Assembly: GCA_030739735.1 (NCBI GenBank)
Contig: JASLYQ010000026.1
Location: 1 to 35,274, forward strand
Direction: 5' to 3'
Length of the DNA stretch: 35,274 nucleotides
DNA from: Alphaproteobacteria bacterium
GTDB lineage: Bacteria > Pseudomonadota > Alphaproteobacteria > UBA7887
The position numbers were made by a program, and so were the translations under genes. Below, in pieces: positions 4,734 through 21,280 of the stretch (the stretch's first letter is position 1; each line of letters starts with the position of its first letter). Below the pieces are notes generated by a model, which was not told the DNA's origin, did no database searches, and saw only the letters and a program-made list of their open reading frames with translations.

Positions 4734-5044
4734 CGGGGTTGAGCGATTTCGATGCCGCCTTGATTGTGGCAATCTGTCGTCGAGATGAGAGAATTCGAGA
4801 CGAGGGCATGGTTCATTTATGAGAAACGATGGCGTGGCTTGCTTTGGTTGTGTGCTTGGGTGTCGGCGGCGCGACAACAAACGAATGCGGTAGCTTTTTT
4901 TATTCCGCGAAGCCGCGTTACAGTAACCATGTTAAGGCTATAGATAGTGATGGTGCGGCCATGCGAGGCAATTAAGGGCGACCTATTAACGTTAACGACT
5001 AACTTTATCGATTGCTTTGTCTACACCTACAAGAGCTAAGTCGT
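4734..5044. other. Gap between convergent genes; no gene supported
   Basis: These 311 bases separate the rsmB stop from the stop of the minus-strand racemase-like gene. The second half (about 4870-5030) is AT-rich. It contains a run of seven T at about 4894-4901, but I find no good stem before it, so a terminator is not demonstrated. A 10-bp palindrome TTAACGTTAA is at 4986-4995 and shares the core TAACGTTA with the dyad at 309-324. Minus-strand frames here have unlikely codon use. Confidence 0.4.
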
Positions 5045-6184
5045 CTAAACGTAGCCCGGTCCGTCGATCAGTGGAAAATCCGCGAGCATCGCCTCGTCAA
5101 TCTGAACGCCTAGGCCAGGGTTCTCTGGCGGGCGCACATGGCCCGTCTCATCGACTTCAGCGCGCCAGCTGCAGAGCTGGTCTCGGAAAGGGTTGTGCGC
5201 CGCCAGATCGGCCTCGAAATAACCCGCATTGTCGATGCTACAGAGATAATGGATGCTGGCCGCGACGTTGAGGCTGGTGAGCGAGGTGTGCGGATTGATG
5301 CCGAGCTTCCAGGCCGAGGCCAGCGCCGCGATACGCATGCCCTCGGTGACACCACCGGTCTTCGAGAGGTCAGGTTGTAGGATCGTGATCACGCCATCCT
5401 CGATGAGGCGGTGGAATTCGAAGCGTGTGAAATGGTTCTCGCCGGCGGCGAGCGGGGTGATCCCGAAGCCCTTGGCCTCGCGATAGCGGCGGTGGTCATG
5501 CGGCGCGAACGGCTCTTCCAGCCAGCCCGCATTGACGTCGTCCAGCACTGGCATGACGCGGCGCGCATCGTCGAGCGTATAGGCGGTGTTTGCGTCGGTC
5601 AGGATGGCGATGTCGTCGCCGATACGCTCGCGTACCGCCACGATGCGCGCGATGTCCGCTTGGGCGCTGTCACCGAGCCGCAGCTTCAGCGCGCGGTAGC
5701 CGCTTGCCACCACGCTCGCTGCCTCGTCCGTCAGCTCGGCCGGCGGCTGGTAGCCGAGAGAGACGCCGCCAGCATAGGCCGGAATCGCTTTCGCCGCACC
5801 GCCGAGCAACCGGTATAGTGGCCAACCCACAGCCTTGGCGCGAATGTCCCAGAGCGCGATGTCGATGCCACTCAGCGCTAGGCTTGATGCGGTACCCATA
5901 CCGTGGCTGGCGAGCTGCATCTTGTAGACCCGATCCCAGACGCCGACGACATCGTCTGCGCCCATGTCCTGGATAAGCGTAGTCAGTGTGGTGTTGATGA
6001 GCTGGGCAATTGATCCTGGCGCACGGCCCGCATGGGCCTCGCCCCAGCCGACGATACCGTCGTCGGTCTCGATGCGCACCAATACAGCATCGCGTTTGAC
6101 CGCTAGGCCAATACCGAGCCTCACCTGATGCTCAGCAGGGACGGAAAAGGAGATTGGGAAGGCTTTGATAGTAGCAATTTTCAT
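5045..6184 (-). CDS. Mandelate racemase/muconate-lactonizing family enzyme (enolase superfamily)
   Basis: The 379 aa product has the capping domain plus barrel of the enolase superfamily, which abstracts a proton alpha to a carboxylate and stabilises an enolate on Mg2+. Metal ligands are visible: D197 (LTDAN), E223 (WLEEP) and E249 (AGENH). The general bases are K167 in KLR and H299 (NPHTS) paired with D272 (QPD). The His/Asp dyad places it in the mandelate racemase subgroup, which includes sugar-acid dehydratases. The usual K-x-K is K-x-R here. The start at 6184 gives MKIATIKAF, a typical N-terminus, and lies 2 bases after the stop of the NHL gene, so the two are cotranscribed. Substrate unknown. 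Confidence 0.85.
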   Translation of the reverse strand: MKIATIKAFPISFSVPAEHQVRLGIGLAVKRDAVLVRIETDDGIVGWGEAHAGRAPGSIAQLINTTLTTLIQDMGADDVVGVWDRVYKMQLASHGMGTASSLALSGIDIALWDIRAKAVGWPLYRLLGGAAKAIPAYAGGVSLGYQPPAELTDEAASVVASGYRALKLRLGDSAQADIARIVAVRERIGDDIAILTDANTAYTLDDARRVMPVLDDVNAGWLEEPFAPHDHRRYREAKGFGITPLAAGENHFTRFEFHRLIEDGVITILQPDLSKTGGVTEGMRIAALASAWKLGINPHTSLTSLNVAASIHYLCSIDNAGYFEADLAAHNPFRDQLCSWRAEVDETGHVRPPENPGLGVQIDEAMLADFPLIDGPGYV

Positions 6185-8121: not shown

Positions 8122-8481
8122 TCACTCGTCCTTTGGCGGCACAGTAATCACCAGAAAGACTAGGTCGTCGAGGCCGGTGTTGCTGATTAGGTGTTCGATG
8201 CCGGGCGGGATGAAGATGACATCATGGCGACGTACCACTTGCCGCTTGCCCTCGAACTCCATGACGCCTTCGCCTTCCAATACGTGGTAGATCTGCTCCT
8301 GCACCCGGTGTGTGTGCCGGGCGACATAGCCCTTGGGCTGATAAGACGAGATGCGGTAATCGATGTGTCCGCCTTGTCCGGTCTCGGGGCCGAACAGCAG
8401 CTTGGAATACGCACCGTCATAGTGCCCGGGCATCAATTGCCAGTCGATCTCGGCGATATTGATAATCTTGGCGTCGGCCAT
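8122..8481 (-). CDS. Single-domain cupin protein
   Basis: The 119 aa product is a compact cupin_2 barrel. Motif 1 is seen as HTHRVQEQIYHVLEGEG (metal-ligand pattern H-x-H with downstream acidic or amide residue) and motif 2 as IPPGIEHLI. Such proteins can be dioxygenases, isomerases or sensors, and the sequence alone does not decide. The start at 8481 (MADAKIIN) has a strong GAGGAG site; the longer frame to 8880 is an overlap with the gene upstream. It begins 13 bases after the ThDP-enzyme stop and is the last gene of the demethylase operon, so a role on the pathway's substrate or product is plausible. Confidence 0.8.
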   Translation of the reverse strand: MADAKIINIAEIDWQLMPGHYDGAYSKLLFGPETGQGGHIDYRISSYQPKGYVARHTHRVQEQIYHVLEGEGVMEFEGKRQVVRRHDVIFIPPGIEHLISNTGLDDLVFLVITVPPKDE

Positions 8482-8494
8482 TGCTCTGCTCCTC

Positions 8495-10279
8495 TCAGTC
8501 GCCGGGCACCCAGGGGGTGCCGTAGATGGGTTCTTTGTGGGGCATCGGTGGTAGCGCCCAGGTGCCGGTGGCGGGCGGGCGCACTTCAGCGTCCACGTGC
8601 ACGTCGAGTAACGCCGGCTTGCCCGACGCCAGCGCCTGCTCCAGCGCGCCTTCGAGATCGCCGGGGTCGGTGACTGTAGTGCCATCCACGCCGCAGGCGC
8701 GGGCCAGCGCTGCGAAGTCCGGGTTGTAGGGCTCGCGATTGTCACCACGATAAAAACCGGTGCCGATCTCGCGACCCTCGAACAGGCCGTACTGGATGTC
8801 GCGGATGGCTGACCAGGCGAAGTTGTTCCAGACCACCCAGATGGCCGGGATGTTGTACTCGACCGCGGTGCAGAGCACATGCGGGGTCATGGTGAAGCCG
8901 CCGTCGCCCACCACCGAGATGCAGGCGCTTTCGGGCGCTGCTAGCTTGGCGCCGAGAATTCCAGAGGGCCCAAAGCCCATGGCTGAAAACCCCCAGGTGT
9001 TGAGCATGGTCTGGGGCATCCGCGCGTCCCAGAACTGCATGAACCAGTTGTGGTGGACACCGGAATCGAGCGACAGGATGCCATCGTCTGGCATCAGCTT
9101 GCGCAATGTTGTGACGACCTGCTCGGGCCGTAGCGGGCTTGTGCGCGCGTCCATGTTGGGGGCGGTGAAGTCATCCCATTCCTGTTGCCAGGCGGCGATT
9201 TCGTCGCGCCAGACAGCGAGCCGCGGGGCGCCACTTTCGCCCCGCCGTTCGATCTCACCGAGTAGCTGCCGCAGCACGGTTCGCGCGTCCGCCACGATGC
9301 CAAGGTCTGGCGCATAATTGCGGCCGATCTCGACCGGGTCCACATCCACATGGATAAGCTTGGTGTGCGGAAAGTTCCACGAATAGCCAGGCAGCCATGA
9401 GGACGACGAGCGATCGTCAAAGCGGGCACCGATTGCCAGAACCAGGTCCGCATGGCGACCCGCTTGGTTTGCCGGGTAGACGCCGTTGCGGCCAATGAAG
9501 CCGAGCGACAAGTCGTGGGTCATGTCGAGACAACCCATGCCGTTCGGCGAGCTGATGACGGGGACAGAGAGTTTCTCGGCAAGCGCCGTGAGCTCCGCGG
9601 ATGCTTCGGAGAGCGTCACGCCGTGGCCGATGAACAGCACTGGGCACTCCGCTGCCAGCAGCATATCGACGGCGCCACTCACGTCCTCGGGCGAGGCGGC
9701 AGAGCGTCGGCTGATGCGCTCGCCGGCAGCGGTCGGTACTTCGACGTCGGCGCTTTCCTGGAAGACATTGAAAGGCACGTCGAGCTGTACCGGGCCGGGG
9801 CGCCCTTGGGTCATCGTGGTCCAAGCGTGGTCGAGCGCCAGCGGCAACATCTCGACACGGGTCGGCTGCAAGCTGCGCTTGACGACAGGGCGCACGACGG
9901 AGGGAAAATCAGCCGCGCCATGGCGGTTGATCTCCTGGAAGGGCCCGCGGTCGAATTGCTGGGTTGGCACGTTGGCGGTAATTGCCAGAAAGGCGGATGA
10001 ATCGCTCAGCGCACAGGTCAGCGCCATGACCAGATTGGCCGAACCTGGGCCGCACGAGGTCAGTGTAGCCACCGGCTCGTGCTTCACCCGGTAATAGGCG
10101 TCGGCCATGTGTCCCGCGGTCTGCTCGTGGCGAGGTGAGACCAGTGTGATGTCGTCTTGCGCCGCGTGCAGCGCATCGAGGATGCCGACCGTGCCATGGC
10201 CGCAAAGGCCGAACACGTACGGCATCTTTTCCTTGATCAGGAACTCGACGATAAGTTCGCCGCCCTTCATCTCCGGCAT
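8495..10279 (-). CDS. Thiamine diphosphate-dependent enzyme, acetolactate synthase-like
   Basis: The 594 aa product has the three-domain layout of the IlvB/POX family. The N-terminal Pyr domain carries catalytic Glu52 (SPRHEQTAGHMADAYYR). The middle domain spans about 200-340. The C-terminal PP domain has the ThDP/Mg motif GDGGFTM (458) ending at WNN (484-486). True acetolactate synthase is unlikely: no small subunit gene is present, and the context is C1 metabolism. Oxalyl-CoA decarboxylase, sulfoacetaldehyde acetyltransferase or a 2-oxoacid decarboxylase are alternatives that the sequence does not settle. ATG 10279 follows AGGGAGCTGAC. It starts 32 bases after the COG0523 GTPase gene and 13 bases before the cupin gene, so it is probably in the demethylase operon. 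Confidence 0.8.
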   Translation of the reverse strand: MPEMKGGELIVEFLIKEKMPYVFGLCGHGTVGILDALHAAQDDITLVSPRHEQTAGHMADAYYRVKHEPVATLTSCGPGSANLVMALTCALSDSSAFLAITANVPTQQFDRGPFQEINRHGAADFPSVVRPVVKRSLQPTRVEMLPLALDHAWTTMTQGRPGPVQLDVPFNVFQESADVEVPTAAGERISRRSAASPEDVSGAVDMLLAAECPVLFIGHGVTLSEASAELTALAEKLSVPVISSPNGMGCLDMTHDLSLGFIGRNGVYPANQAGRHADLVLAIGARFDDRSSSSWLPGYSWNFPHTKLIHVDVDPVEIGRNYAPDLGIVADARTVLRQLLGEIERRGESGAPRLAVWRDEIAAWQQEWDDFTAPNMDARTSPLRPEQVVTTLRKLMPDDGILSLDSGVHHNWFMQFWDARMPQTMLNTWGFSAMGFGPSGILGAKLAAPESACISVVGDGGFTMTPHVLCTAVEYNIPAIWVVWNNFAWSAIRDIQYGLFEGREIGTGFYRGDNREPYNPDFAALARACGVDGTTVTDPGDLEGALEQALASGKPALLDVHVDAEVRPPATGTWALPPMPHKEPIYGTPWVPGD

Positions 10280-10311
10280 GTCAGCTCCCTAGTTTTGTTG
10301 GTGGGTGCAAT

Positions 10312-11181
10312 TTAGGCGCTGTCGGCGCGATCCGCAAAAACGAAGTGGGCGGCCAGCGCGTCGGGGTCGAGGTCTGGCCCGATCAGCACCAGGTGCCTGT
10401 GCGGGCCGGCAGCAGGGGTGATCTCCAGTGCGTCCGGAACGTACTGGATAAGCGACGGCACGCCGTCCACCTCCATGAAGCCTTTGGCGCGCCATAGGGG
10501 GCAGCGCAGGGTGGCGAAAGTTTGACGTAGCGTCTCGCTGTCGATGGCTTTGTCGCAGGTTAGGGTGATGGCATCGGTGTGAATATGGCTGCCGCCGCCA
10601 CCGCTTTTGCGGCTAGTGCCTTCAAACAGAGGCGTGCCGTCGATATCGCCGTGCTCGGCGGGAATTACTGTAGCCTCCGAGTTCAGACTGGCGACGGTAG
10701 CGAGCGTCGCCGCGAGTTGCTCGGGTGTCGCGAGATCGGTCTTGTTCACGACCACGATGTCGGCTGCCGTCACCTGTTCGCCATAGAACAGCCCGAGGCT
10801 GCTATGCAGGCGTGTGAAACGCGCCGCATCGACGACCGTGACCAGAGGCGCGAGGGTGAGCCACGACGATTCCTTGCCGAGAGCCGCGACAAGCTCGTCC
10901 GGCTGGGCGACGCCGCTCGCCTCGACGATCACCTGAGCATAATCTTGCAGGTCTTCCAGCGCCTCCACCAGCGGCCCCTGCAAGGTACAACAGACGCAGC
11001 CCGAGGGCAGCTCGACCGTTGTCTCGGCGATGTCCTCGAGCAGTGCACCGTCGATGCCGACATCGCCAAACTCGTTTACGATTACGGCGAGCGCGCCGTC
11101 GGGCGCTGGGGCGTTGAGGATACGCCGCAGCAGTGTTGTCTTGCCGGCGCCGAGAAAGCCGAACAGGAAGACGACTTTCAT
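10312..11181 (-). CDS. CobW/COG0523-family GTPase (metallochaperone-like)
   Basis: The 289 aa protein is a G3E-family GTPase of the CobW/YjiA type. It has Walker A GFLGAGKTTLLRR (8-20), the metal-binding CxCC motif GCVCC (61-65), EASG near 87, and NKTD for guanine specificity. A glycine- and His-containing linker (GGGGSHIHTD) leads to a CobW C-terminal domain. Members insert or traffic Zn2+, Co2+ or nickel, and CobW itself is tied to cobalamin synthesis. ATG 11181 overlaps the stop of the pterin methyltransferase gene (ATGA at 11178-11181), showing translational coupling. Placement in a corrinoid operon suggests delivery of Zn to the methyltransferase or service to the cobamide (inference). 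Confidence 0.88.
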   Translation of the reverse strand: MKVVFLFGFLGAGKTTLLRRILNAPAPDGALAVIVNEFGDVGIDGALLEDIAETTVELPSGCVCCTLQGPLVEALEDLQDYAQVIVEASGVAQPDELVAALGKESSWLTLAPLVTVVDAARFTRLHSSLGLFYGEQVTAADIVVVNKTDLATPEQLAATLATVASLNSEATVIPAEHGDIDGTPLFEGTSRKSGGGGSHIHTDAITLTCDKAIDSETLRQTFATLRCPLWRAKGFMEVDGVPSLIQYVPDALEITPAAGPHRHLVLIGPDLDPDALAAHFVFADRADSA

Positions 11182-12233
11182 CGTGCGGCGCGCTTGGTCT
11201 CCCGCTGCTTGGTCCGCCAAGCCTTGATATAGGTACGGCAGCCCTCGTCGCGGCCAAGGATGACGTTCTCGGCGAGCCGGTAGTCGTCTCTCTCGCGATC
11301 CATGGCGAAAACCTCGGACGGCGGGCTTAGGTTGGGATCGATGATGCCGCTGTCCAGCCCCACTTCGGTGCCGAGAATCATGAACACGTCGTTGATGGTC
11401 TTGCGCGAGGGGATGCCGAAGGAAACGTTGCTGACGCCACCGGTGATATGGATTTCCGGCCCCCAGCACTCGCGCAGGCCCTTGATGGCATCGAGCCCAT
11501 GCATCCCGAATGCGGGATTGACCGAGACCGGGAAGAACAGTGGATCGACGAACATGTCGCTGCGCGCGATGCCTTTGGCCTCGGCGGTTTTGATCATGCG
11601 TCCGGCATTGGTCAGGCGCTGCTCGACGCCATCTGGCATGCCTGACTCACCTGCCGCCGTAAGCACTACGCGGGCATTGTGCTTGACGGCGAGATCAACC
11701 GCATCGCTGCGCTCCAGCGAAGCGGAATTGAGCATGGGCCGCGCGGCCGATCCGGCACAGGCATCGAGGCCCGTAGCAATGACTTCCATGTCCGAGGAAT
11801 CCACGGCGATCGGCAGCTTGCTCATGCCGCGCAGGGCGGTGACGGCCCAGGCCATAGCCTCCTGGCGCTCGGACATGTGGATCGAGATCTCGTCCACATT
11901 GATGTCGAGATAGGTGCTGCCGTTCTTTTCCTGGTTGGCGACGAGCGCGCGCAGGTAGGCTACAGCGATCTCGGCATCGTCGCCACCCGCCATCGCGGTC
12001 CTGACCGCGATCATCACGTGCTTGATGCGGCCCGCCTCGTATTCTTGGGTCTTGCTGGCCCAATCGGGTATGGGCAGCAGGCCGGCATTGCCGTTATTAT
12101 CCGTAAAGGTGATGCCCTCGCTGCCACCGTCCTCGCCCGAGATATAACGCTTGCCGCGCTTCAAAAGTACGCGGGTCGTGTGAACGTTCTCGCCGATAAC
12201 GACAAAGTTGGCTCTGCGGATCTCGGTGCTCAT
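11178..12233 (-). CDS. Methyl-corrinoid:tetrahydrofolate methyltransferase (pterin-binding, AcsE/MtrH/MT-II type)
   Basis: The 351 aa product folds as a pterin-binding TIM barrel. Recognisable signatures are GENVHTTR (14-21), YLDINVDE (108-115), AVDSSD (143-148), MLNSAS (167-172), FVDPLFFP (228-235) and GGVSNVSFGIP (265-275). The Asn in the last motif aligns with the Asn that contacts N5 of the pterin in MeTr. In this context it should move the methyl group from the corrinoid protein to tetrahydrofolate, the MT-II step of O-demethylases and the CmuB step of chloromethane use. Its start and stop both overlap neighbours by ATGA, the hallmark of a tightly coupled operon. Direction of transfer is inferred. 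Confidence 0.88.
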   Translation of the reverse strand: MSTEIRRANFVVIGENVHTTRVLLKRGKRYISGEDGGSEGITFTDNNGNAGLLPIPDWASKTQEYEAGRIKHVMIAVRTAMAGGDDAEIAVAYLRALVANQEKNGSTYLDINVDEISIHMSERQEAMAWAVTALRGMSKLPIAVDSSDMEVIATGLDACAGSAARPMLNSASLERSDAVDLAVKHNARVVLTAAGESGMPDGVEQRLTNAGRMIKTAEAKGIARSDMFVDPLFFPVSVNPAFGMHGLDAIKGLRECWGPEIHITGGVSNVSFGIPSRKTINDVFMILGTEVGLDSGIIDPNLSPPSEVFAMDRERDDYRLAENVILGRDEGCRTYIKAWRTKQRETKRAAR

Positions 12234-13882
12234 CCGGCGCTCCTTTTCAGCGATGGTCGTGGCGGGTCCATCATGGGCTTGAATTGGCAGCCTTCGACGA
12301 AAAGGTCGAAGAAATCAGGTTCAGTTTCGAGCTCAATATGATCGATGCGGGGGACAGCCCTTTCCAACGCGCGCCGTGCCGTGACAGACAGCAGCACTTT
12401 GCGCGCGCCGTGCAGCGCGGCGTTGCCGACTTTCGCGACGCGCGCGGGATCGATCGGTGCTAAAAGACCGATGGCGATGGCGTTCTCGATATCGAGGGTA
12501 TTGGCGAAGCCGCCGGCCAGGGTCACGCGCTCAACCTCGCCAGGCCCGATGCCGAGGCTGCGCAACACGATCTGCTGGCCGCAGCTGTTTGCTGCCTTGG
12601 CCTGGGCGAGGTGGCTAGCGTCGGCGCGGGAAAATGTGATGCCGTGCTCCGGTACGACGGTGATCTGCATTTGCTTGCGCCCGCCCGAGAAGACGCCGAG
12701 CGGGTTCATAAGCTCCTGGCGGCGCAGTACGGCGACAAGATCGACTAGGCCCGAGCCGCACAAGCCTTCCGGCGGCGCGTCACCGATGGTTTGCCAGGAA
12801 AAGTCTTCACCCCGCCAATCGAGGGACTCGATGGCACCGTCAAAGGCCCTCATGGCCCAGGTCACGAGGCCGCCTTCGAAGGCCGGGCCGGCCGGGCATG
12901 AGGCGGCCAGCATCCGGCCGTGGGCACGCACCACTACCTCGGTATTGGTGCCGATGTCGATCAGCATCTCTGGCGCGTCGCCTTCGGGATCGAGTCCGGT
13001 GGCAGCAAGACAAGCTGCCGTGTCGCCGCCGACATGGCTGGCGATTAACGGTAGGCCGTAAAGCCGCGTCCGGCGGTTGGCGCGAAAGCCGAGATCCCAG
13101 GCATTGGCGGTCAATGCTGTGCTGTCGCGCTTTCCCGCGCGCCACTCGGCTTCGACGAGCGAGCGGTACGGCTTTTGCCCGATGCTGGCGACATCGAGGC
13201 CGAAGATCAGTTCGCGCATGGTGGTGTTGCCGGCCACGACGATCTCATAGATTGCGCGGCGGGCAAAACCGTGGCGCTTGGCGGCAGCGCGGATCTCGCG
13301 GTTCACCGCGCTTACCACAGCTTTCTGCAGCTCGCCCGGGTTGGTACCATCGTAGGAGATGCGGTGCATCACGTCCGAGCCGCCGAAGCCTTGCGGGTTG
13401 GCGAAGGCGCAAGTCTCGACGCTGTCGCCGGTCTCAAGATCGACGATATCCATGACCACCGTCGTGGTGCCGAGGTCGAGTGCAATACCGAGCATGCGCT
13501 TACGCGCCTGGTCGATCACCTGGCCGTCGAGCAGGATCTCGTCGCCGTGGCGGCTGGCGGCTGGATCGCGCGCCAAGCTCTCGTCGAAATGGGTATCAGT
13601 CAGGATGCGCGGGCGCCGTCGTAGCGGTGCGAAGCGGATGTCGCGCTCGGCGACAATCTCGGCTTGGCAGGCAAGGCGGTAGGGGTCCTTAAGAAAGCCT
13701 TCGACCCCGCTGCGCGGGCCCAAGGCGTCCAGCCCTTCGCTGATCTCGACGACGCATTCGTGGCAGGTGCCCGAGCGCCCGCAGGAGGTCGCGACTTCCA
13801 GTGCTAGGTCGTCAGCGTAGTCAAACAGTGTACGCCCGGCGATCAGCTCACGGCTCTCGCCGCCATGGGAGACGCGGCTCAC
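12230..13882 (-). CDS. RACo-type reductive activator of corrinoid proteins (2Fe-2S plus ASKHA ATPase)
   Basis: When a corrinoid protein is oxidised to Co(II) it must be reduced back to Co(I); RACo proteins couple this to ATP hydrolysis. The 550 aa product starts with a ferredoxin-like domain holding C34, C40, C43 and C72 (C-x5-C-x2-C-x28-C), as in plant-type 2Fe-2S sites. A linker leads to the ASKHA ATPase region: LGIALDLGTTTV near 131-142, DIGTNTE, GLCGSGLVD, and LAGGFANTLDIENAIAIG. This is the DUF4445 architecture. The start is GTG at 13882, overlapping the preceding stop as GTGA; no better start exists because the ferredoxin domain begins at once. Confidence 0.9.
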   Translation of the reverse strand: MSRVSHGGESRELIAGRTLFDYADDLALEVATSCGRSGTCHECVVEISEGLDALGPRSGVEGFLKDPYRLACQAEIVAERDIRFAPLRRRPRILTDTHFDESLARDPAASRHGDEILLDGQVIDQARKRMLGIALDLGTTTVVMDIVDLETGDSVETCAFANPQGFGGSDVMHRISYDGTNPGELQKAVVSAVNREIRAAAKRHGFARRAIYEIVVAGNTTMRELIFGLDVASIGQKPYRSLVEAEWRAGKRDSTALTANAWDLGFRANRRTRLYGLPLIASHVGGDTAACLAATGLDPEGDAPEMLIDIGTNTEVVVRAHGRMLAASCPAGPAFEGGLVTWAMRAFDGAIESLDWRGEDFSWQTIGDAPPEGLCGSGLVDLVAVLRRQELMNPLGVFSGGRKQMQITVVPEHGITFSRADASHLAQAKAANSCGQQIVLRSLGIGPGEVERVTLAGGFANTLDIENAIAIGLLAPIDPARVAKVGNAALHGARKVLLSVTARRALERAVPRIDHIELETEPDFFDLFVEGCQFKPMMDPPRPSLKRSAG

Positions 13883-14220
13883 GAGTCCGGGTCGTCCTCA
13901 TCGCGGCGCGCGCGCGCCGCGCGCTTGATACGGGAGATCTTTTTTTTGGCCCGATCATAATGGGCCGGCTCGCTGTCCCAGGCGACACGGTAGTCCAAGG
14001 TGCCGTCATGGGTACAGATGGGCAAAGTCTCGCTGTCGTCGAGCCGCAACTGCATGCGGCAGCGGGCCAACCCGGTACAGCGGTCGTGGCGGTCGCGATA
14101 GGGGCAGCGCACGGAAGCCTGCTTGTCAGCGTGGCGGACCATGTCCGCGAACAGCTCGGTAATGCGATCGAGCCGTTGCTGATAGGCTTCCTTATCTGTC
14201 TTTGGCGGCTTGTCAGGCAT
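13879..14220 (-). CDS. Small 4-cysteine protein of unknown function in the corrinoid operon
   Basis: I do not recognise this 113 aa protein. It begins with a helical, charged segment (EAYQQRLDRITELFADM). Then four cysteines follow at C39, C48, C54 and C69 (C-x8-C-x5-C-x14-C), which could bind Zn2+ or an Fe-S cluster. It ends in a strongly basic then acidic tail (AKKKISRIKRAARARR, then DEDDPDS). ATG 14220 overlaps the corrinoid protein stop by 8 bases, and its stop overlaps the RACo start, so it is made together with both. Its fixed place between the corrinoid protein and its activator suggests an electron-transfer or assembly partner (inference). Confidence 0.75.
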   Translation of the reverse strand: MPDKPPKTDKEAYQQRLDRITELFADMVRHADKQASVRCPYRDRHDRCTGLARCRMQLRLDDSETLPICTHDGTLDYRVAWDSEPAHYDRAKKKISRIKRAARARRDEDDPDS

Positions 14221-14968
14221 CGGCCCCGGCTGCCACGAGGTCCTTGGCCAGTCCGACGCAGGCCAGTGCATCCTTGCCATAGCTATCGGCGCCCATATCG
14301 TCGGCGAATTCCTGGGTTACCGGCGCACCGCCGACCATGATGCGCACGTCGTCGCGCAGGTCTGCATCGATGAGGGCCTCGATAGTCTTGCCCATGTTCG
14401 GCATGGTCGTGGTCAGAAGTGCCGACATGCCGAGTACAGGCGCGCCGTGCTCCTCGACGGCATCGATGAACTCGTCATCGGAGGTATCGACACCGAGATC
14501 GATGACGGTGAAGCCGGCGCCGCGCAGCATCATGATGCAGAGGTTCTTACCGATGTCATGCAGGTCGCCCTTGACCGTGCCCATGATCACTGTGCCGATG
14601 GGCTTGACGCCCGAGGCTGACAGGATCGGTTCGATATATGTCATGCCAGCCTTCATGGCGCGGGCGCAGGAGAGCACCTCGGGCACGAAGATGAAGTTCT
14701 CCCGGAACTTGATCCCGACTATGCCCATGCCGCCGATCAGCCCGTCGTCCATAACCTCTGTGGCCTTGATGCCTTCGGCTAGCGCTTGCTTAGTCAGTTT
14801 GTCAGCTGCAGAATCGTTACCCTCAATGATGGCTACCGCAATGTCTTGCGTCAATGGCCGAGCCTTGGCGAAAAGGTCTACGGCGCGCGATATCTCCTCG
14901 GGGCGCTCGATGAACTCCTCGATCTCGTCGCGTAAAATCTCGTTGGCAATATCGGATAGGTTAGCCAT
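14213..14968 (-). CDS. Corrinoid (B12-binding) methyl-carrier protein, MtbC/MtvC-like
   Basis: The 251 aa protein carries a cobamide that alternates between Co(I) and methyl-Co(III), shuttling the methyl group between the two methyltransferases. Residues 1-115 form the helical cap typical of methyl-corrinoid proteins. The B12 domain follows, with GTVKGDLHDIGKN holding the D135-x-H137-x-x-G140 motif whose His is the lower axial ligand. SALLTTTM (182-189) and GGAPVT (213-218) complete the nucleotide-tail pocket. ATG 14968 lies 18 bases after the methyltransferase stop. The neighbours on both sides are its expected partners. Well supported. Confidence 0.93.
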   Translation of the reverse strand: MANLSDIANEILRDEIEEFIERPEEISRAVDLFAKARPLTQDIAVAIIEGNDSAADKLTKQALAEGIKATEVMDDGLIGGMGIVGIKFRENFIFVPEVLSCARAMKAGMTYIEPILSASGVKPIGTVIMGTVKGDLHDIGKNLCIMMLRGAGFTVIDLGVDTSDDEFIDAVEEHGAPVLGMSALLTTTMPNMGKTIEALIDADLRDDVRIMVGGAPVTQEFADDMGADSYGKDALACVGLAKDLVAAGADA

Positions 14969-14986
14969 AGCAATCGGTCTCGCGGT

Positions 14987-16030
14987 CTAATGCACTTGCG
15001 GGTGATTTGCGTGCCAGTCGCGCACGGCCTTGGGGATCTCGAGCAGGTTCTCGATCGAGGTTTGCAAGGGAATCGCGCATTCCGGGGCAATCAGCTGCAC
15101 GCCGGCATCAAGGTTAGCATAAACCTCCTCGCGCACGGCGTCCGTCCCCTTGGCAAATAGGGTTTCGGGATTGTTAATGTTGCCCACCAGCCGGATGCCA
15201 CCGTGAACCGCTTCCATGGACTCGCCCGGCTCGTTCTTGGAATCGTAATGAAAGGCGGCCATGCCGGTCTCGGCAATGAAGGGCATGCGATCGACCGTAC
15301 GTCCACATATGTGAAGAATTAATGGAATATCAAGACGTTCTGAGAATTCTTTATGTATATTCTTTAGGTAACGCTCGTAATACTCACCGCTGACGAGATC
15401 GCCGGTGGCATGGTCGGGCAAGGTGAGGGCATCGACGCCGACATCGATTTGCGCCTGACCGAATTGGATGGTCGCCTCCTTGAGGCGGTCGAGCACCAGC
15501 TTGGTCTTGCCCGGATCGTCCAACGAGAGCAGCAGGAAAGGCTCGACCCCGAAGCAGTGATAAGCTAGCGACCAGGGCCCCATGGTCTTGCCGACGATCG
15601 CCACCTCGTCGCCAAATTCCTTGCGCAAGCCGCGAATAGCGTCGAGCACGCAGATCGTGTCCTGGTGGGTGAGGAAGTCGTTGGGGATGCGGATGTCGTC
15701 GGCGGTGCGCCAAATCGGTTCTTTCATGCGCACGGTCGGCCAGTTGTCTTTCTGCTCCCACTGCATCTTGCAGCCGAGCGCTGAGGATTCTTGGATGATT
15801 GAGAAGACCGGCATGATGGCGTCGAAATCGAGCTCGGTGTAGCTCGTCGCAGCCAGGCGTGCCATCAGCTCGCCCTCGCGGTTGGCGTTGGGAAACGGTG
15901 CGTCGACCAGATCCATCAACTCGACTGTGGCGACCGAGGTCGGGTTGCACACCGGCGTTCTGTCGACGGGCTCGCCGGCGAGTGCTGCCAACACCCTCTC
16001 ACGGCTCGTCATGGGGGCTATGCCTGTCAT
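14987..16030 (-). CDS. UroD-family cobamide-dependent methyltransferase (MtaA/CmuA/MtvB-like, MT-I)
   Basis: This 347 aa protein has the uroporphyrinogen decarboxylase fold shared by MtaA/MtbA, CmuA and the substrate-specific MT-I of acetogen O-demethylases. The Zn ligands used by this group are present: H240 and C242 in LILHICGRT and C318 in APECAIP. The opening MTSRERVLAALAGEPVDRTPV is the family N-terminus. No CoM-based metabolism is expected in a bacterium of this type, so it most likely takes the methyl from the growth substrate to the corrinoid. The substrate (methoxy, methyl-halide, methyl-sulfur or other) cannot be read from sequence. A GAGGGAGG site precedes ATG 16030, 18 bases after the upstream gene. 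Confidence 0.88.
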   Translation of the reverse strand: MTGIAPMTSRERVLAALAGEPVDRTPVCNPTSVATVELMDLVDAPFPNANREGELMARLAATSYTELDFDAIMPVFSIIQESSALGCKMQWEQKDNWPTVRMKEPIWRTADDIRIPNDFLTHQDTICVLDAIRGLRKEFGDEVAIVGKTMGPWSLAYHCFGVEPFLLLSLDDPGKTKLVLDRLKEATIQFGQAQIDVGVDALTLPDHATGDLVSGEYYERYLKNIHKEFSERLDIPLILHICGRTVDRMPFIAETGMAAFHYDSKNEPGESMEAVHGGIRLVGNINNPETLFAKGTDAVREEVYANLDAGVQLIAPECAIPLQTSIENLLEIPKAVRDWHANHPQVH

Positions 16031-16048
16031 TCGTGCCTCCCTCTCTCG

Positions 16049-16675
16049 TTATTCCTGCGTGCTCGGCGCTGCGAGCACACCCCGACCCGCCGTCTCCGCC
16101 TGCTCTCGCATGGCGACGCGAACATTGAGCGCCCGAGTCAGCAGTAGGCCAATAAGTGCATCGTGCGCGTGGCCGCAGAAAAATGCCACTGTATCGTCGC
16201 TCTCCGCTTCCATCTCGGCCAACTTCACGAGACCGCCTGCCACGGTAGCGATGCGCCGGGTATTGGCCGGATCGTCAGCGGAGACCCGGTAGCGGCCGGC
16301 GCCGAGGCTGGTGACGATAATATTGGCGTCCGCTTTTTTATCGAAAACCGTGAGTGGCTTGGCCGTGAACTTGTTCGCCGGATCGAGCTTGCAGACTTCC
16401 AGAAAAAGGCGGCGAACGCCCATGCTGTGCTCGGCGCCACACGGAAACCGCTCGCTGTGCTCGCTCTCGGGAACCATGTCGCCCAGCGTTTGCATTGCCT
16501 CGCCTAGCCACGCCATGCGGGCCTCGGCTCCCTCGTGGCCGCTGTATGTATGCACCCGGAATGCCGCCGCGCCATTGCTGCCCGGTCGCTCGTACAGCGC
16601 CAAAGTGACGTCGTGGAAGTGGCGGTCCATCGGCAACAACTCGATGCGCTTGCCCAGATCGACGATATGCCCCAT
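16049..16675 (-). CDS. Unknown 208 aa protein, first gene of the corrinoid operon
   Basis: I do not recognise this protein. It is soluble, with no signal peptide or membrane segment. Features that can be seen are an early DRHFHDV, a central FPCGAEHSMGVRR, LEVCKLDP, and a His/Cys-containing FFCGHAHDALIG near residues 165-176. The recurrence of Cys and His near each other could mean metal binding. ATG 16675 has a GAGGGCC site and lies about 37 bases from the predicted start of transcription, so it is the leading gene. Position next to the UroD-type methyltransferase suggests it serves substrate entry or the methyltransferase itself (inference). Confidence 0.8.
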   Translation of the reverse strand: MGHIVDLGKRIELLPMDRHFHDVTLALYERPGSNGAAAFRVHTYSGHEGAEARMAWLGEAMQTLGDMVPESEHSERFPCGAEHSMGVRRLFLEVCKLDPANKFTAKPLTVFDKKADANIIVTSLGAGRYRVSADDPANTRRIATVAGGLVKLAEMEAESDDTVAFFCGHAHDALIGLLLTRALNVRVAMREQAETAGRGVLAAPSTQE

Positions 16676-16695: not shown

Positions 16696-16749
16696 TTGCG
16701 ACACGGCATCGCTAGTTGCAATATACGTCTGGTATACCACTGATGTCCA
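16696..16749. promoter_or_regulatory. Divergent promoter pair with TGGTATACCA operator
   Basis: For the minus-strand operon, -35 TGGACA (16749-16744) and -10 TATATT (16725-16720) are 18 bases apart. For the plus strand, TTGCGA (16696-16701) and AATATA (16720-16725) are also 18 apart, so both use the same -10 hexamer in opposite directions. A perfect 10-bp dyad TGGTATACCA at 16730-16739 lies in the minus-strand spacer and at the plus-strand start point. The half-site resembles operators of GntR/FCD regulators, and such a gene lies downstream at 18225. Promoters are read by eye. Confidence 0.55.
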
Positions 16750-16766
16750 GCAAGGACCACGCTGTG

Positions 16767-17222
16767 ATGGTGATGCGACATTGGGCCAGCCGGCATCCCC
16801 GTCCTTTGATGGCGGCGTACCGTCTCGCGCGCCGCCTGTTCCTGGGTCTGGCGCCGCTCTGGTGGCTGATCGGCAATCGCCGCCTGGAAAGGCCGCTGGC
16901 GTTTCTTGAGCGCGCGCTCAAGGGGCCGCTGTTCGATTGCCGCATGTGCGGCACCTGCGTGCTTTCCGAGACCGGCATGACCTGTCCGATGAATTGCCCC
17001 AAGGCGTTGCGCAACGGCCCTTGCGGCGGTGTGCGCAGCGACGGGCATTGCGAGACAAAGCCCGAGATGCGCTGCGTCTGGGTGGTCGCGAGTGAGGGTA
17101 GCCGCCTGCTCGGAGAGCCGTCGCCATTGGCCCTGGTGTTGCCGCCGGTCAACCATGCCCGCAGCGGCAAGTCTTCGTGGTTGTCGCTGCTTGAAGAGGC
17201 GCAGAGGGAACGGGCGGCTTGA
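16767..17222 (+). CDS. MetV-like zinc/Fe-S partner of methylenetetrahydrofolate reductase (MTHFR C-terminal-type domain)
   Basis: The 151 aa product carries eight cysteines in a compact block: C58, C61, C64, C73, C77, C86, C95 and C103, including CRMCGTC, TCPMNCPK and NGPCGG. This is the signature of the MTHFR_C/MetV family, the small partner that pairs with MetF in acetogens and in C1-oxidising bacteria. An N-terminal basic and hydrophobic stretch (residues about 10-40) may be a membrane-proximal helix. I prefer ATG 16767, preceded by AAGGA; ATG 16743 is in frame but overlaps the promoter and has no ribosome site. Its stop overlaps the metF-like start. Confidence 0.82.
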   Translation: MVMRHWASRHPRPLMAAYRLARRLFLGLAPLWWLIGNRRLERPLAFLERALKGPLFDCRMCGTCVLSETGMTCPMNCPKALRNGPCGGVRSDGHCETKPEMRCVWVVASEGSRLLGEPSPLALVLPPVNHARSGKSSWLSLLEEAQRERAA

Positions 17223-18187
17223 GCGTGCCGTCCACAGCCTACGATGCTGAAGGTCGCTTCGAGCGCGCGCTGCGGGCGGGGCGTTTCGTGGTCACAGCCG
17301 AACTCAACCCACCCGATTCCGCCGATCCGGACGACGTGTTCGACCGTGCTATGGTGCTCTCACAAGTCTGCGATGCGATCAACGCGACGGATGCCTCAGG
17401 CGCCAACTGCCACATGTCGAGCTTGGGTATTTGCGCCCTTCTGCGGCGTGCCGGCTATGCCACGATCATGCAAATCTCTTGTCGCGATCGCAATCGCATT
17501 GCCATCCAGGGTGACGTGCTCGGTGCCGCGGCGATGGGAGTGCGCAACATCCTCTGCCTCAGTGGCGATTCTGTCGCCGTGGGCGATCACCCCGAGGCTA
17601 AGCCGGTCTTCGATCTCGATTCGATCACGTTGCTCGAGACCATTCGCGGCATGTGCGAAGAGGGCAGGTTCCTCTCCGGGCGCGAGATCACCGCGCTGCC
17701 GCGGGTCTTTCGCGGCGCTGCTGCCAATCCCTTTGTGCCGCCATTCGAGCAACGCCCTTTGCGGCTGGCCAAAAAGATCGCTGCCGGTGCCCAGTTCGTG
17801 CAAACTCAGTACTGCTACGATGCGCCGGTGCTGGAGCGTTACATGGCGAGCGTGCGCGAGCTCGGCCTGCATGAGAAGTGCTATATCATCCCCGGGGTCG
17901 GGCCGCTGACCTCGGCTTCCGCGGCGCGTTGGATCCGCTCGAAAGTGCCCGGCGTACACATTCCCGACACGGTCATTTCTCGCCTTGAAAGTGCGTCCGA
18001 CCAGAAGGCCGAGGGCCGCAGAATCTGCATCGAGCTGATCCAGCAGATCTCTGAGATTGCAGGCGTCGCCGGCATTCACATGATGGCCTATCGCCAGGAA
18101 GAGGCGGTAACCGAGATCGTCATGGAGTCCGGCATCCTCGCCCGCCGTCGCCCCAAGCGTGCGCGCAGCGCCGTCAAAGCCGGTTAG
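17219..18187 (+). CDS. 5,10-methylenetetrahydrofolate reductase (MetF family)
   Basis: MetF-type flavoproteins interconvert methyl- and methylene-tetrahydrofolate. The 322 aa product is a flavin TIM barrel with AELNPPDSADPDD near 27-39, whose Glu28 matches the catalytic Glu of E. coli MetF. ATIMQISCRDRN follows, then NILCLSGD near 114, and QFVQTQYCYD in the second half. The start is probably TTG 17219, overlapping the metV stop as TTGA; GTG 17225 is an alternative. With a demethylase operon opposite, it should run in the oxidative direction, turning methyl-H4folate into methylene-H4folate, like the MetF2 linked to chloromethane use. This copy is likely specialised rather than the methionine-synthesis one. 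Confidence 0.88.
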   Translation: MSVPSTAYDAEGRFERALRAGRFVVTAELNPPDSADPDDVFDRAMVLSQVCDAINATDASGANCHMSSLGICALLRRAGYATIMQISCRDRNRIAIQGDVLGAAAMGVRNILCLSGDSVAVGDHPEAKPVFDLDSITLLETIRGMCEEGRFLSGREITALPRVFRGAAANPFVPPFEQRPLRLAKKIAAGAQFVQTQYCYDAPVLERYMASVRELGLHEKCYIIPGVGPLTSASAARWIRSKVPGVHIPDTVISRLESASDQKAEGRRICIELIQQISEIAGVAGIHMMAYRQEEAVTEIVMESGILARRRPKRARSAVKAG

Positions 18188-18224: not shown

Positions 18225-18884
18225 ATGAGTGAGCAGCCGCAGCGAACCGAGGCCTCGGAGAGCCTGACCCGGCGGGCCTACGAACGGATCGAGGAGATGA
18301 TCGTCACGCTTGACTTGGCGCCGGGCGAGACGGTTTCGGAGGCCGCCCTTGCGCAAAGTCTCGGCATGAGCCGCACGCCAGTGCGCGAGGCCTTACAGAG
18401 GCTTGCGCGTGAAGGTCTGGTGCGGGTGATGCCGCGGCGCGGGTTGCTGATCACCGAGTTCGATGTTGGCCGCCAGCTGCGCATGCTCGATGTGCGCCGC
18501 CAGATCGACCGCTTGCTAGCCATGCGCGCTGCGACGCGGCGTAGCGCGCAGCAGGCCGATCGCTTTCGCGAGGTCGCGGCCCAGTTTGCCGAAGCTGCCG
18601 AGCAGAACGACGATACCCTATTCACCCGTGCCGACCGCGCTTTCAATGAGCTTATCACCGCTGCCGCCGCCAACGAGTTCGCCACCGAGGCCGCCTCGCT
18701 CACCCAGGGCTTGTCGCGGCGCTTCTGGTACGCCTACCATGAGCGCTTCTCCGAGATTGGGCAAGCCGCCGACCTCCACCGCGCCATCGCGCTTACCATC
18801 GCCGACGGAAACGAGGCCGCGGCAGGCGCCGCTAGCAACACCCTACTCGATCACGTCGAGGCGTTTACGCGGGCCACTTTATAG
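18225..18884 (+). CDS. GntR-family transcriptional regulator, FCD subgroup
   Basis: The 219 aa protein has a winged helix at about residues 14-77 (SEAALAQSLGMSRTPVREAL, then EGLVRVMPRRGLLI), followed by an all-helical FCD ligand domain at about 85-215. FCD domains bind small carboxylates, often with a metal held by Asp and three His; here the usual D-x-x-F-H is D-R-A-F-N, so one ligand appears to be replaced, while H184 is kept. It follows metF by 37 bases and is probably in the same transcript. The obvious target is the divergent promoter at 16696-16749, with the demethylation substrate or product as effector (inference). Confidence 0.9.
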   Translation: MSEQPQRTEASESLTRRAYERIEEMIVTLDLAPGETVSEAALAQSLGMSRTPVREALQRLAREGLVRVMPRRGLLITEFDVGRQLRMLDVRRQIDRLLAMRAATRRSAQQADRFREVAAQFAEAAEQNDDTLFTRADRAFNELITAAAANEFATEAASLTQGLSRRFWYAYHERFSEIGQAADLHRAIALTIADGNEAAAGAASNTLLDHVEAFTRATL

Positions 18885-18886
18885 CC

Positions 18887-21280
18887 CTACATAGAATAGT
18901 GACCGTAGAGTGAGAGTTGGGCGGCTTCGAACTCGACGCCTTCGCCGACGTCCTCGTCGTGCATGAAGTCGAACTCGCCGGGCAGGGCTTTGGATTTTAG
19001 CACCTTACCTTCGGGGCCGCGCGGCAGGTCTGTGGTGGGGCCGTATTCGGCTTCCAATGCCTCGATTTCCGTCGTGCTCAGTTTGGTGACGGCACAAGGC
19101 GCGCCCTTGAGATGCGGCACGCCCTGCTCGGCGTCAACCAATGCGAGATCCTCATCCTCCGCTAGCTGTGCCTCGTTAAAGTTCCACATGCCCGACAGGT
19201 GAGCACCACCCCGGCGCGATTCTGGCTTCCACCAGCCGTGTGGGATGCGCACCAGTCCCTGCGGCATGCTAGTGCGACCGTAAACGCGACCGAGCATGGC
19301 GCCGGTGCGCGTCTCGACGCGCCCCCAATCGCCGTCCGCCATGCCAAGTTCCACGATATCCGCTGGATTGAGGAAGAACATCGGGTCCTCAGCGCGCTGG
19401 CGCAGCTCGGGCACATGGCGATGGCCCGAGCGGAAGAACTCGTCGTCCGGCAGACCGACGAAGGAGGCAAAGGGGTATTTATCGTCGGGCCGCGTCGCCT
19501 CGCGGTAATAGGGCAGGGGATCGAAGCCGAGCTTTTCCAGCACCTCGGAATAGAGCTCGACCTTACCGGTTGGCGTAGCGAAACCCGTCTTCAGGTACTT
19601 GCGCTCGCTGTCGCCTTCCGCCTGACCCTTGTTCAGGTTCGGCGAGCGGCCGGCCGAGACTACTTCCGCCCAGGTCTTGCCGCCGGGCTCCAGGCGATAG
19701 TCGAACATTTCCTCAACCGTGGCCCAGGGGAACTGCTCGGCCAATCCCATGCGCTTGGCAAGCTCGTGCCAGAATGTGACCACGTTGCGGCACTGGCCGG
19801 GTGGTGGCATGGCCTGTTCGCTAATTCCCGCATGCATGCTCGGACGCTCCAGCCAACTATCGCCAGGTAGCACATAGTCGGCGATCTGCGCGGTCGGCGA
19901 CAATACATGCTCGAAGGCCACGATGAGGTCCTGCTTCATCAGCGCCTCATAGGCTCGTTTGGTATTGGCGAAGGCCGCTAAAGTGTTGTTAGCCATGGCA
20001 AAGAAGGCGCGTACGGGATAGGGGTCGCTTTCCGCCATCGCCTTGAACACGGCCATGGGGTGAGCCATGTAGCAGCCGCCCACGAGGTTCGCCCAGCGGA
20101 TGCCCCAAACTTTCTCCGAGGCATCGCAAAACACACTCGTGCCGCGATAGGTGAAGGCAGGGAATGTGTCGGCGCCGAGTTGCTTAGCCTTCTGTTCGGG
20201 TGTCAGCATCTCGTGCATCTCAATCTCCGAATCCGAGCGCACTGCGGGACTGAAACCGATGAGTTGGTCGCCGCCGGTGACGTCGAGATGACCGCAAATC
20301 GCCCGTAGCATGCATTGCAGACGGATGGCCGAAGTGCTCGAAACCTGCTGATCTGTGATCGGCGTCCAGGGGATACAGGCCGGGCCGTTGGTCGCGTACA
20401 TGCGCGCGCCCTCGGCGATGAGTTCCGCATCGACGCCGGTGATCTCTGAGACCCGCTCGAGCGGATATTCGCGCACGCGTGCTGCCAGTGCATCGAAGCC
20501 CACCGTCCAGTCGCGCACGAAGTCCTTGTCGTAAAGCTCTTCATCGATGATCACATTGAGCCAGCCGAGCAGCAGGGCGGCATCTGTGCCCGAACGTAGT
20601 GGCAGCCAGATCTCGGCGCGCTCAGCGTTTTCGCTCTTGCGCGGATCGATGACTATGAGCTTGGCACCGTTCGCCTGAGCCATGCGGATGGCCTTGTACT
20701 CCATGGTCCAGCTGTGCCGACGTGGGTCGTGGCCGATTAGCACAATGCACTTGGTATTGAAAATGTCGGCGCGCGGAAACCAGCCGTAGACATAGCGATT
20801 GATGGCAGCGGTGTTGCCAGCGCAATAAGAGACTCCGCCGATCCAGTTTGGCGTCCCTATATGGTTCATGAAGCGTCGGCACAGACCATTGTCGCCGAGT
20901 CCGGTGGCGCCGCTTTGCGAAACTGCGAAGGCCTCCGGGCCGTGCCGGTTAATGACTTTTTGCAGGCGTTCGGCGATGTCGTCCAACGCCTGGTTCCAGG
21001 TCACGCGCTGCCATTCTCCGCTGCCGCGCTCGCCCACCCGCTTGAGGGGGTGGAGTACGCGGTCCGGGTGCGAGTAGTGCTTCGGCGAATAGGCGCCTTT
21101 CATGCACAAGACGCCCTTGAACAGCGGATGGTCGCGCGTGCTGATCTTGACCACGCGGCCGTCCTCAAGCTTGGCAGAGACGGGGCAAAACCCATCGCAA
21201 CTCGTGCATACGACCTGCTTGACGGACTCTTCAGCCGCAGTCTCCACTGCGCCGGATTCGGATCGGCTATACTCATCCAT
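18887..21280 (-). CDS. Molybdopterin-dependent oxidoreductase, cytoplasmic, [4Fe-4S]
   Basis: The 797 aa product is a DMSO-reductase-superfamily catalytic subunit. C25, C28, C32 and C59 (C-x2-C-x3-C-x26-C) bind a [4Fe-4S] cluster. The bis-MGD pocket follows, with GATGLGDN and SYCAGNTAAI, where C153 is the probable Mo ligand. Later motifs are LIGHDPRRHSW, IDPRKSENA, and the C-terminal molydop-binding domain from about 630. No Tat signal is present, so it is cytoplasmic. The residue after the ligand Cys is Ala rather than the His of formate dehydrogenases, so I do not call it one. No electron-transfer subunit lies beside it. It converges on gntR with 2 bases between the stops. Confidence 0.85.
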   Translation of the reverse strand: MDEYSRSESGAVETAAEESVKQVVCTSCDGFCPVSAKLEDGRVVKISTRDHPLFKGVLCMKGAYSPKHYSHPDRVLHPLKRVGERGSGEWQRVTWNQALDDIAERLQKVINRHGPEAFAVSQSGATGLGDNGLCRRFMNHIGTPNWIGGVSYCAGNTAAINRYVYGWFPRADIFNTKCIVLIGHDPRRHSWTMEYKAIRMAQANGAKLIVIDPRKSENAERAEIWLPLRSGTDAALLLGWLNVIIDEELYDKDFVRDWTVGFDALAARVREYPLERVSEITGVDAELIAEGARMYATNGPACIPWTPITDQQVSSTSAIRLQCMLRAICGHLDVTGGDQLIGFSPAVRSDSEIEMHEMLTPEQKAKQLGADTFPAFTYRGTSVFCDASEKVWGIRWANLVGGCYMAHPMAVFKAMAESDPYPVRAFFAMANNTLAAFANTKRAYEALMKQDLIVAFEHVLSPTAQIADYVLPGDSWLERPSMHAGISEQAMPPPGQCRNVVTFWHELAKRMGLAEQFPWATVEEMFDYRLEPGGKTWAEVVSAGRSPNLNKGQAEGDSERKYLKTGFATPTGKVELYSEVLEKLGFDPLPYYREATRPDDKYPFASFVGLPDDEFFRSGHRHVPELRQRAEDPMFFLNPADIVELGMADGDWGRVETRTGAMLGRVYGRTSMPQGLVRIPHGWWKPESRRGGAHLSGMWNFNEAQLAEDEDLALVDAEQGVPHLKGAPCAVTKLSTTEIEALEAEYGPTTDLPRGPEGKVLKSKALPGEFDFMHDEDVGEGVEFEAAQLSLYGHYSM

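Follow-up and report, generated by a model that had tools for sequence, protein, structure and literature searches.

A run of minus-strand genes at positions 8,122 to 16,675 of contig JASLYQ010000026.1 (assembly GCA_030739735.1; Alphaproteobacteria bacterium, GTDB lineage UBA7887) encodes a corrinoid methyl-transfer system; the whole stretch analyzed, 35,274 nucleotides in length, is referred to below as the window. Judged by sequence, the UroD-type methyltransferase MT1, the corrinoid protein (CP), the RACo-type activator, and the pterin-binding methyltransferase MT2 form a complete set of the type in which a first methyltransferase (MT-I), a CP, an activating enzyme (AE), and a second methyltransferase (MT-II) cooperate. 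The real unit, as delimited by related loci, is A208–MT1–CP–D113–RACo plus an acceptor enzyme. It is proposed, with confidence about evenly balanced, to demethylate a methylated soft-atom compound (a thioether or methyl-thiol, with a selenoether or halide also possible) in a bacterium equipped to respire oxygen. The best guess for the substrate is a methylated thiol or thioether.

Most known corrinoid demethylases come from anaerobes. The genome carrying the window (2.64 Mb, 69 contigs, 98.8% complete) encodes COX1, subunit 1 of cytochrome c oxidase, and this gene, together with the titles of the metagenome-assembled genomes (MAGs), makes it likely that the bacterium respires oxygen, as the first-pass annotation of this DNA had supposed. 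For lineages whose genomes come in part from sponges and lakes, the unit would supply a defined set of genes through which methyl-sulfur (or methyl-halide) compounds could be turned over aerobically. Neither the unit nor its substrate is described in any open-access paper found, in keeping with the earlier impression that the combination had not been reported. The novelty lies in the combination and in the helper proteins; the kind of system is already known.

The Conserved Unit and Its Distribution

The genes of the unit in the window, and the GTPase gene that follows them, are:

16049..16675, minus strand: A208, first gene of the unit, no Pfam, NCBIfam, or PADLOC match
14987..16030, minus strand: MT1, MtaA/CmuA type, proposed methyl-donor demethylase (Pfam URO-D, 204.8 bits; triad H240/C242/C318)
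14213..14968, minus strand: CP, cobalamin-binding (Pfam B12-binding and B12-binding_2; D135-x-H137-x-x-G140)
13879..14220, minus strand: D113, small, four invariant cysteines, no Pfam, NCBIfam, or PADLOC match
12230..13882, minus strand: RACo-type ATP-dependent corrinoid activator (Pfam Fer2, the N-terminal 2Fe-2S domain, Raco_middle, and RACo_C_ter)
11178..12233, minus strand: MT2, pterin-binding, predicted methyl-CP:tetrahydrofolate methyltransferase (Pfam Pterin_bind)
10312..11181, minus strand: COG0523/CobW-type GTPase, putative metal chaperone (Pfam cobW)

Coordinates, Pfam, and alignments bear out the first-pass description of a UroD-type protein with H240/C242/C318, a CP with D135/H137/G140, a RACo-type 2Fe-2S activator, and a pterin methyltransferase in one minus-strand run. 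The overlaps of 4–8 bases that it reported from the CP gene to the COG0523 gene are likewise present: CP and D113 share 8 bases, and D113/RACo, RACo/MT2, and MT2/COG0523 share 4 each, while the remaining same-strand intergenic gaps measure 13–32 bases. Pfam and NCBIfam scans name seven of the nine genes between 8122 and 16675, and the two left unmatched, A208 and D113, are the same two that had been noted as lacking a known family.

The unit recurs well beyond the window. Within a sample of 385 alphaproteobacterial genomes, CP orthologues of at least 74% identity occur in 12, drawn from four families (the cluster genomes; the other genomes number 373). The first-pass annotation had called for a synteny comparison among alphaproteobacterial genomes; in the comparison made here, the thiamine diphosphate (ThDP) enzyme and the cupin found beside the unit drop out. 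MT1 is present in eight of the nine genomes of the window bacterium's order; in the ninth, D113, RACo, MT2, and part of CP are present, the contig breaking off within the CP gene. When about 85,000 species genomes were searched for D113 patterns, 24 loci came up, belonging to Alphaproteobacteria, Gemmatimonadota, Acidimicrobiia, and a few MAGs without classification. Most of these relatives are metagenome-assembled, and their genes are our own open reading frame calls, scored by codon use.

The loci are distinguished into two types: type 1, with A208 and a His-Cys-Cys MT1, and type 2, the Acidimicrobiia type, without A208. The order A208–MT1–CP–D113 is found in 11 of 11 type 1 loci, with RACo next in all save L042, which lacks RACo and has MT2 immediately after D113 (5035–5400). 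The order MT1–CP–D113–RACo–MT2 is found in 13 of 13 type 2 loci. The COG0523 gene adjoins the unit only in the window and in one sister genus (L033/L052, 43% identity, same place). Because the metal-binding triad is invariant in 19 type 1 MT1 sequences and the same order of genes is seen in three phyla, the gene set is not a product of chance.

The enzymes at both ends of the unit are exchanged. In three Gemmatimonadota loci (L045, L048, and L049), the position immediately behind RACo is taken not by MT2 but by a PF02574 homocysteine S-methyltransferase, as identified by Pfam scan for the L048 copy and by blast clustering for the other two. At the donor end, the Acidimicrobiia-type loci retain CP (70–73% identity) and D113 (about 55%), but their MT1 is only 39–42% identical, and the third zinc ligand is changed from cysteine to glycine in every type 2 copy. 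The plainest reading of these sequences is a fixed core of CP, D113, and RACo with an exchangeable donor enzyme (MT1) and acceptor enzyme (MT2 or the homocysteine methyltransferase). Since donor and acceptor enzymes swap around this core, MT1 is placed, with moderate confidence, on the donor side and the direction is taken to be demethylation.

Two further features were seen at these ends. A two-domain rhodanese is encoded divergently from the type 2 MT1 of Acidimicrobiia (L030, 6552–7790, and in the same place in L028, L029, L031, L034, and L039), which hints at chemistry involving sulfur. In L047 (11922–13904), from an uncultured Rhodobacteraceae MAG, MT2 and a C-terminal 2-hydroxyacid dehydrogenase share one open frame, through either a genuine fusion or a join made in assembly.

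MT1 and Its Metal Site

MT1, the one UroD protein within the unit, passes the model for the MtaA/CmuA family (TIGR01463; 240.7 bits against a cut-off of 235.4), as do relatives with 243.2 and 247.9 bits, and falls far below the hemE model (TIGR01464; 63.7 bits against 302.95). The strongest UroD match of the genome is another full-length protein (contig C22; URO-D, 376.6 bits), which is 21% identical to MT1. These two observations exclude MT1 as a true HemE, the outcome that the first-pass annotation had named as fatal to its interpretation.

The best match of MT1 in the Protein Data Bank (PDB) is MtaA from Methanosarcina mazei (4AY7/4AY8; 173 bits, 31% identity over the full length), which harbors the same His-Cys-Cys triad. 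H240, C242, and C318 are invariant across 19 aligned type 1 MT1 sequences of 74–82% identity. When MT1 is aligned with MtaA, CmuA, and the UroD paralogues of the window genome, only the first three have His-Cys-Cys; the paralogues carry H-C-H or H-D-D sites and are 18–19% identical to MT1. A search for near relatives in a plasmid collection returned none, the best hit having 26% identity.

A tree was built, as the first-pass annotation had proposed, and covers MT1 of both types, CmuA, and UroD paralogues. The MT1 sequences of both types group in a single clade (support 98/97), apart from the H-C-H paralogues, and CmuA is placed away from MT1 on long branches; several outer branches are long, which makes the finer placement unsure. 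The contrast with OdmB, VdmB, and MtvB follows a published criterion (PMC10418091): in this superfamily, His-Cys-Cys is the mark of S- and Se-methyltransferases, while O-methyltransferases and O-demethylases substitute one or both cysteines. By its sequence, MT1 is thus an MtaA/CmuA-type protein and not of the acetogen O-demethylase MT-I type.

The Corrinoid Protein, RACo, and MT2

CP matches the D135/H137/G140 motif exactly. Its orthologues share 70–84% identity over three phyla, and it is approximately 50% identical to other alphaproteobacterial CPs. Residues 1–40 form an N-terminal extension of about 40 residues that is common to the cluster CPs and that the alignments with most other alphaproteobacterial CPs do not cover.

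RACo has its best PDB matches in 3zyy/4c1n (E about 1e-66). The top match of MT2 is the chain of 4o0q/4o1e/4o1f, which we take to be an O-demethylase MT-II, followed by AcsE-type MeTr. 4O1E and 4O1F have been used to place folate in the MT-II CdmA (PMC13222342).

The Putative Helper Proteins D113 and A208

D113 has invariant residues C39, C48, C54, and C69 in addition to one histidine. Among the alphaproteobacterial genomes it is present in 12 of 12 cluster genomes and in none of the 373 others, save for one marginal match of 21 residues, making it a clean genomic marker of the system. In six genomes D113 is joined in frame to RACo, forming an N-terminal part that immediately precedes the 2Fe-2S domain. 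The AlphaFold2 (AF2) model is poor (predicted local distance difference test (pLDDT) score of 68) and unusable for structure. D113 may bind a metal or a cluster and assist the activase, and the fusion makes it a testable candidate for keeping cobalt reduced in air.

A208 consists of a duplicated module, each half with a C-G-x-x-H motif, and the halves match each other with 97% probability in hhalign. C79, G80, H83, C167, and H171 are invariant. The AF2 model is confident (pLDDT 89.5), and a Foldseek search with it gave no PDB match at E<=0.001. Wherever the flank is long enough, A208 precedes the type 1 MT1, and it is found at none of the 13 type 2 loci. Because it occurs only beside a His-Cys-Cys MT1, A208 probably acts with MT1 or with its substrate.

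Proposed Reaction

Two genes that the first-pass annotation did not mention lie divergent from the unit and bear on the fate of the methyl group:

16716..17222, plus strand: MetV (DUF5981; Pfam PF12225), divergent neighbor of the unit
17219..18187, plus strand: MetF, methylenetetrahydrofolate reductase (Pfam PF02219), proposed first step of methyl-tetrahydrofolate oxidation

MetV occupies the identical divergent position in locus L033 (59% identity), and this MetF is one of three MetF paralogues in the window genome.

In the proposed reaction, MT1 would bind the sulfur leaving group at its zinc site (His-Cys-Cys) and pass the methyl group to the Co(I) form of CP. MT2 would then transfer it from methyl-Co(III) to tetrahydrofolate. 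RACo, aided by the cysteine-rich D113, would re-reduce CP that has lapsed to Co(II), as should often be necessary in air, and A208 would serve MT1 specifically. The resulting methyl-tetrahydrofolate could be directed to methionine or oxidized by MetVF and later tetrahydrofolate enzymes. The protein families, the zinc and cobalamin motifs, the conserved gene set, the D113–RACo fusions, and the exchanges of MT2 and MT1 are observed; what we infer is which way the reaction runs, that the substrate carries a soft atom, and what D113 and A208 do.

The soft-atom substrate is suggested by the His-Cys-Cys triad. One-carbon use via tetrahydrofolate is suggested because MetVF adjoins the unit and formyltetrahydrofolate synthetase (FTHFS) is encoded in all cluster genomes, compared with 165 of 373 others (Fisher p = 7e-5, not corrected for kinship). 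This co-occurrence fits tetrahydrofolate-linked one-carbon oxidation but is suggestive only. A pure methionine-synthase role appears unnecessary, and is unlikely, since a full-length MetH is encoded elsewhere in the window genome.

Several observations weigh against the proposed demethylation of a soft-atom compound. The FTHFS association is confounded by kinship, the 12 genomes belonging to four families. No substrate gene is conserved alongside the unit in the loci compared. Methanethiol oxidase (SBP56) is not enriched, being encoded in one of 12 cluster genomes and 28 of 373 others, which speaks against a simple route from dimethyl sulfide (DMS) to methanethiol oxidase; as a clue to the substrate, the enzyme was rejected. 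CmuA also has His-Cys-Cys, so the triad leaves halides possible. Finally, MtaA is itself an acceptor-side enzyme, so the reaction could run in reverse.

For aerobes, the existence of a DMS methyltransferase dependent on cobalamin was suggested in 1993, and by 2019 the enzyme had not been identified (Methylophaga work, PMC6548844); the papers found assign no gene to it. It is conceivable, albeit distinctly improbable, that the unit is or closely resembles this proposed corrinoid methyltransferase for DMS or a similar methyl-sulfur substrate; its activase (D113 and RACo) would then be adapted to oxygen, and its partner, A208, would have an unrecognized fold.

Alternative Reactions and Comparison with Known Systems

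In the reverse direction, MetVF and MT2 would load CP from methyl-tetrahydrofolate and MT1 would methylate a thiol, as MtaA, the methylcobalamin:coenzyme M methyltransferase of methanogens, does with coenzyme M. MtaA is the nearest characterized relative of MT1, and the divergently adjoining MetV and MetF would suit such a supply of methyl groups. The setting of MT1 differs from that of MtaA: it is encoded alongside RACo, MT2, D113, and A208, and its genome has a cytochrome oxidase. Against reversal, Gemmatimonadota replace MT2 with a homocysteine S-methyltransferase, normally a methyl acceptor enzyme; the presence of FTHFS in every cluster genome fits, but does not prove, flow toward oxidation. 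Reversal is accordingly rated as rather unlikely.

A methyl-halide dehalogenase analogous to the chloromethane enzymes CmuA and CmuB of aerobic Methylobacterium is improbable. The likeness extends to the protein family (both MT1 and CmuA fall in TIGR01463, the latter by the name of the family), the His-Cys-Cys triad, the aerobic host, and the link to tetrahydrofolate; genes for tetrahydrofolate-linked oxidation are a Cmu theme, with folD and purU next to cmuA in locus L095. However, the identity between MT1 and CmuA (compared from the same locus) is only 22%, and the two are separated by long branches in the tree. Moreover, CmuA fuses the methyltransferase to a corrinoid domain that lacks the DxHxxG histidine and has neither D113 nor A208 beside it, whereas MT1 and CP are separate genes and CP retains the histidine.

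Aerobic corrinoid demethylation is no longer unprecedented, given CmuAB and MtgBCD. The latter demethylates glycine betaine in Ruegeria pomeroyi with an MttB-type donor enzyme (PMC12478193). MtgBCD and the split methionine synthase of Ruegeria and Phaeobacter (PMC12478193, PMC5764234) share with the unit an aerobic alphaproteobacterial setting, a CP, a pterin methyltransferase, and a RamA-type activase, with tetrahydrofolate and homocysteine as acceptors. The MtgBCD donor belongs to the MttB family (pfam06253) and its helper to DUF1638, neither of which is found in the window unit. Very unlikely here is a split methionine synthase in which MT2, CP, and a homocysteine enzyme are served by a RamA of their own. 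MT2, CP, and RACo do correspond to its modules (PMC5764234, PMC12478193), and the Gemmatimonadota members have a homocysteine methyltransferase; yet the window unit lacks the homocysteine enzyme, the genome has full-length MetH, MT1 and A208 would be left unexplained, and the usual partner, DUF1638, is absent from the unit and present at a different corrinoid locus.

The first-pass annotation had equated the four proteins with those of acetogen O-demethylases. The three- and four-component O-demethylases of acetogens and Desulfitobacterium (OdmB, VdmB, and MtvB) do share the division of labor: the same four roles are encoded together, and the top PDB match of MT2 is presumably one of their MT-II proteins. 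The equation of MT1 with their MT-I fails because His-Cys-Cys marks S-methyltransferases and is not the carboxylate-substituted site reported for O-demethylases (PMC10418091), and an aromatic O-demethylase is most improbable, MT1 being of a different subfamily, nearest MtaA and apart from the paralogues with H-C-H or H-D-D sites.

The type 1 mlp clusters described by Kountz and Balskus (PMC10418091), for which methyl-sulfur or methyl-selenium chemistry has been proposed, resemble the unit in combining an MtaA-like His-Cys-Cys UroD protein, a CP, and a Ram/RACE activase. However, these clusters contain at least two Mlps, have no tetrahydrofolate methylase within 20 kb, and occur only in anaerobes, whereas the unit has one MtaA-like protein and MT2 in the operon.

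Neighboring Genes and Other Corrinoid Loci

The remaining features around the unit are:

8122..8481, minus strand: cupin (family scan), accompanying the ThDP gene, outside the conserved unit
8495..10279, minus strand: ThDP enzyme, acetolactate-synthase-like (family scan), outside the conserved unit
18225..18884, plus strand: GntR/FCD regulator (family scan)
18887..21280, minus strand: molybdopterin oxidoreductase, formate dehydrogenase alpha/PhsA-like, below every NCBIfam equivalog cut-off and of uncertain role

The first-pass annotation had counted the ThDP enzyme and the cupin with the corrinoid system. They do adjoin it in the window, but in no other cluster genome seen does either lie beside the unit. 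In sister genomes the ThDP orthologues lie away from the cluster, and they also occur in cluster-negative genomes; the cupin is beside or near the ThDP gene in nine of 10 other genomes. The two were therefore rejected as members and are regarded as an independent conserved pair (window and loci L096–L104), found mostly in cluster-negative genomes. ThDP carriers are nevertheless enriched among cluster genomes (five of 12 versus seven of 373, kinship not removed). The pair mostly stands beside an FAD_binding_2 dehydrogenase and sometimes near branched-chain-type ABC transporters and short-chain dehydrogenases.

The window genome harbors two further corrinoid loci. One (L063, 3823–5820; G000:C1) encodes a UroD–corrinoid fusion with a CmuA-like layout and an H-D-D site, followed by transport genes that look like the LivK/LivH type; this fusion is a second corrinoid system, possibly O-demethylating. 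The third locus (L064, 2225–9028; G000:C32) encodes a methylmalonyl-CoA-mutase-like protein, a CP, two H-C-H UroD proteins, and a DUF1638 protein.

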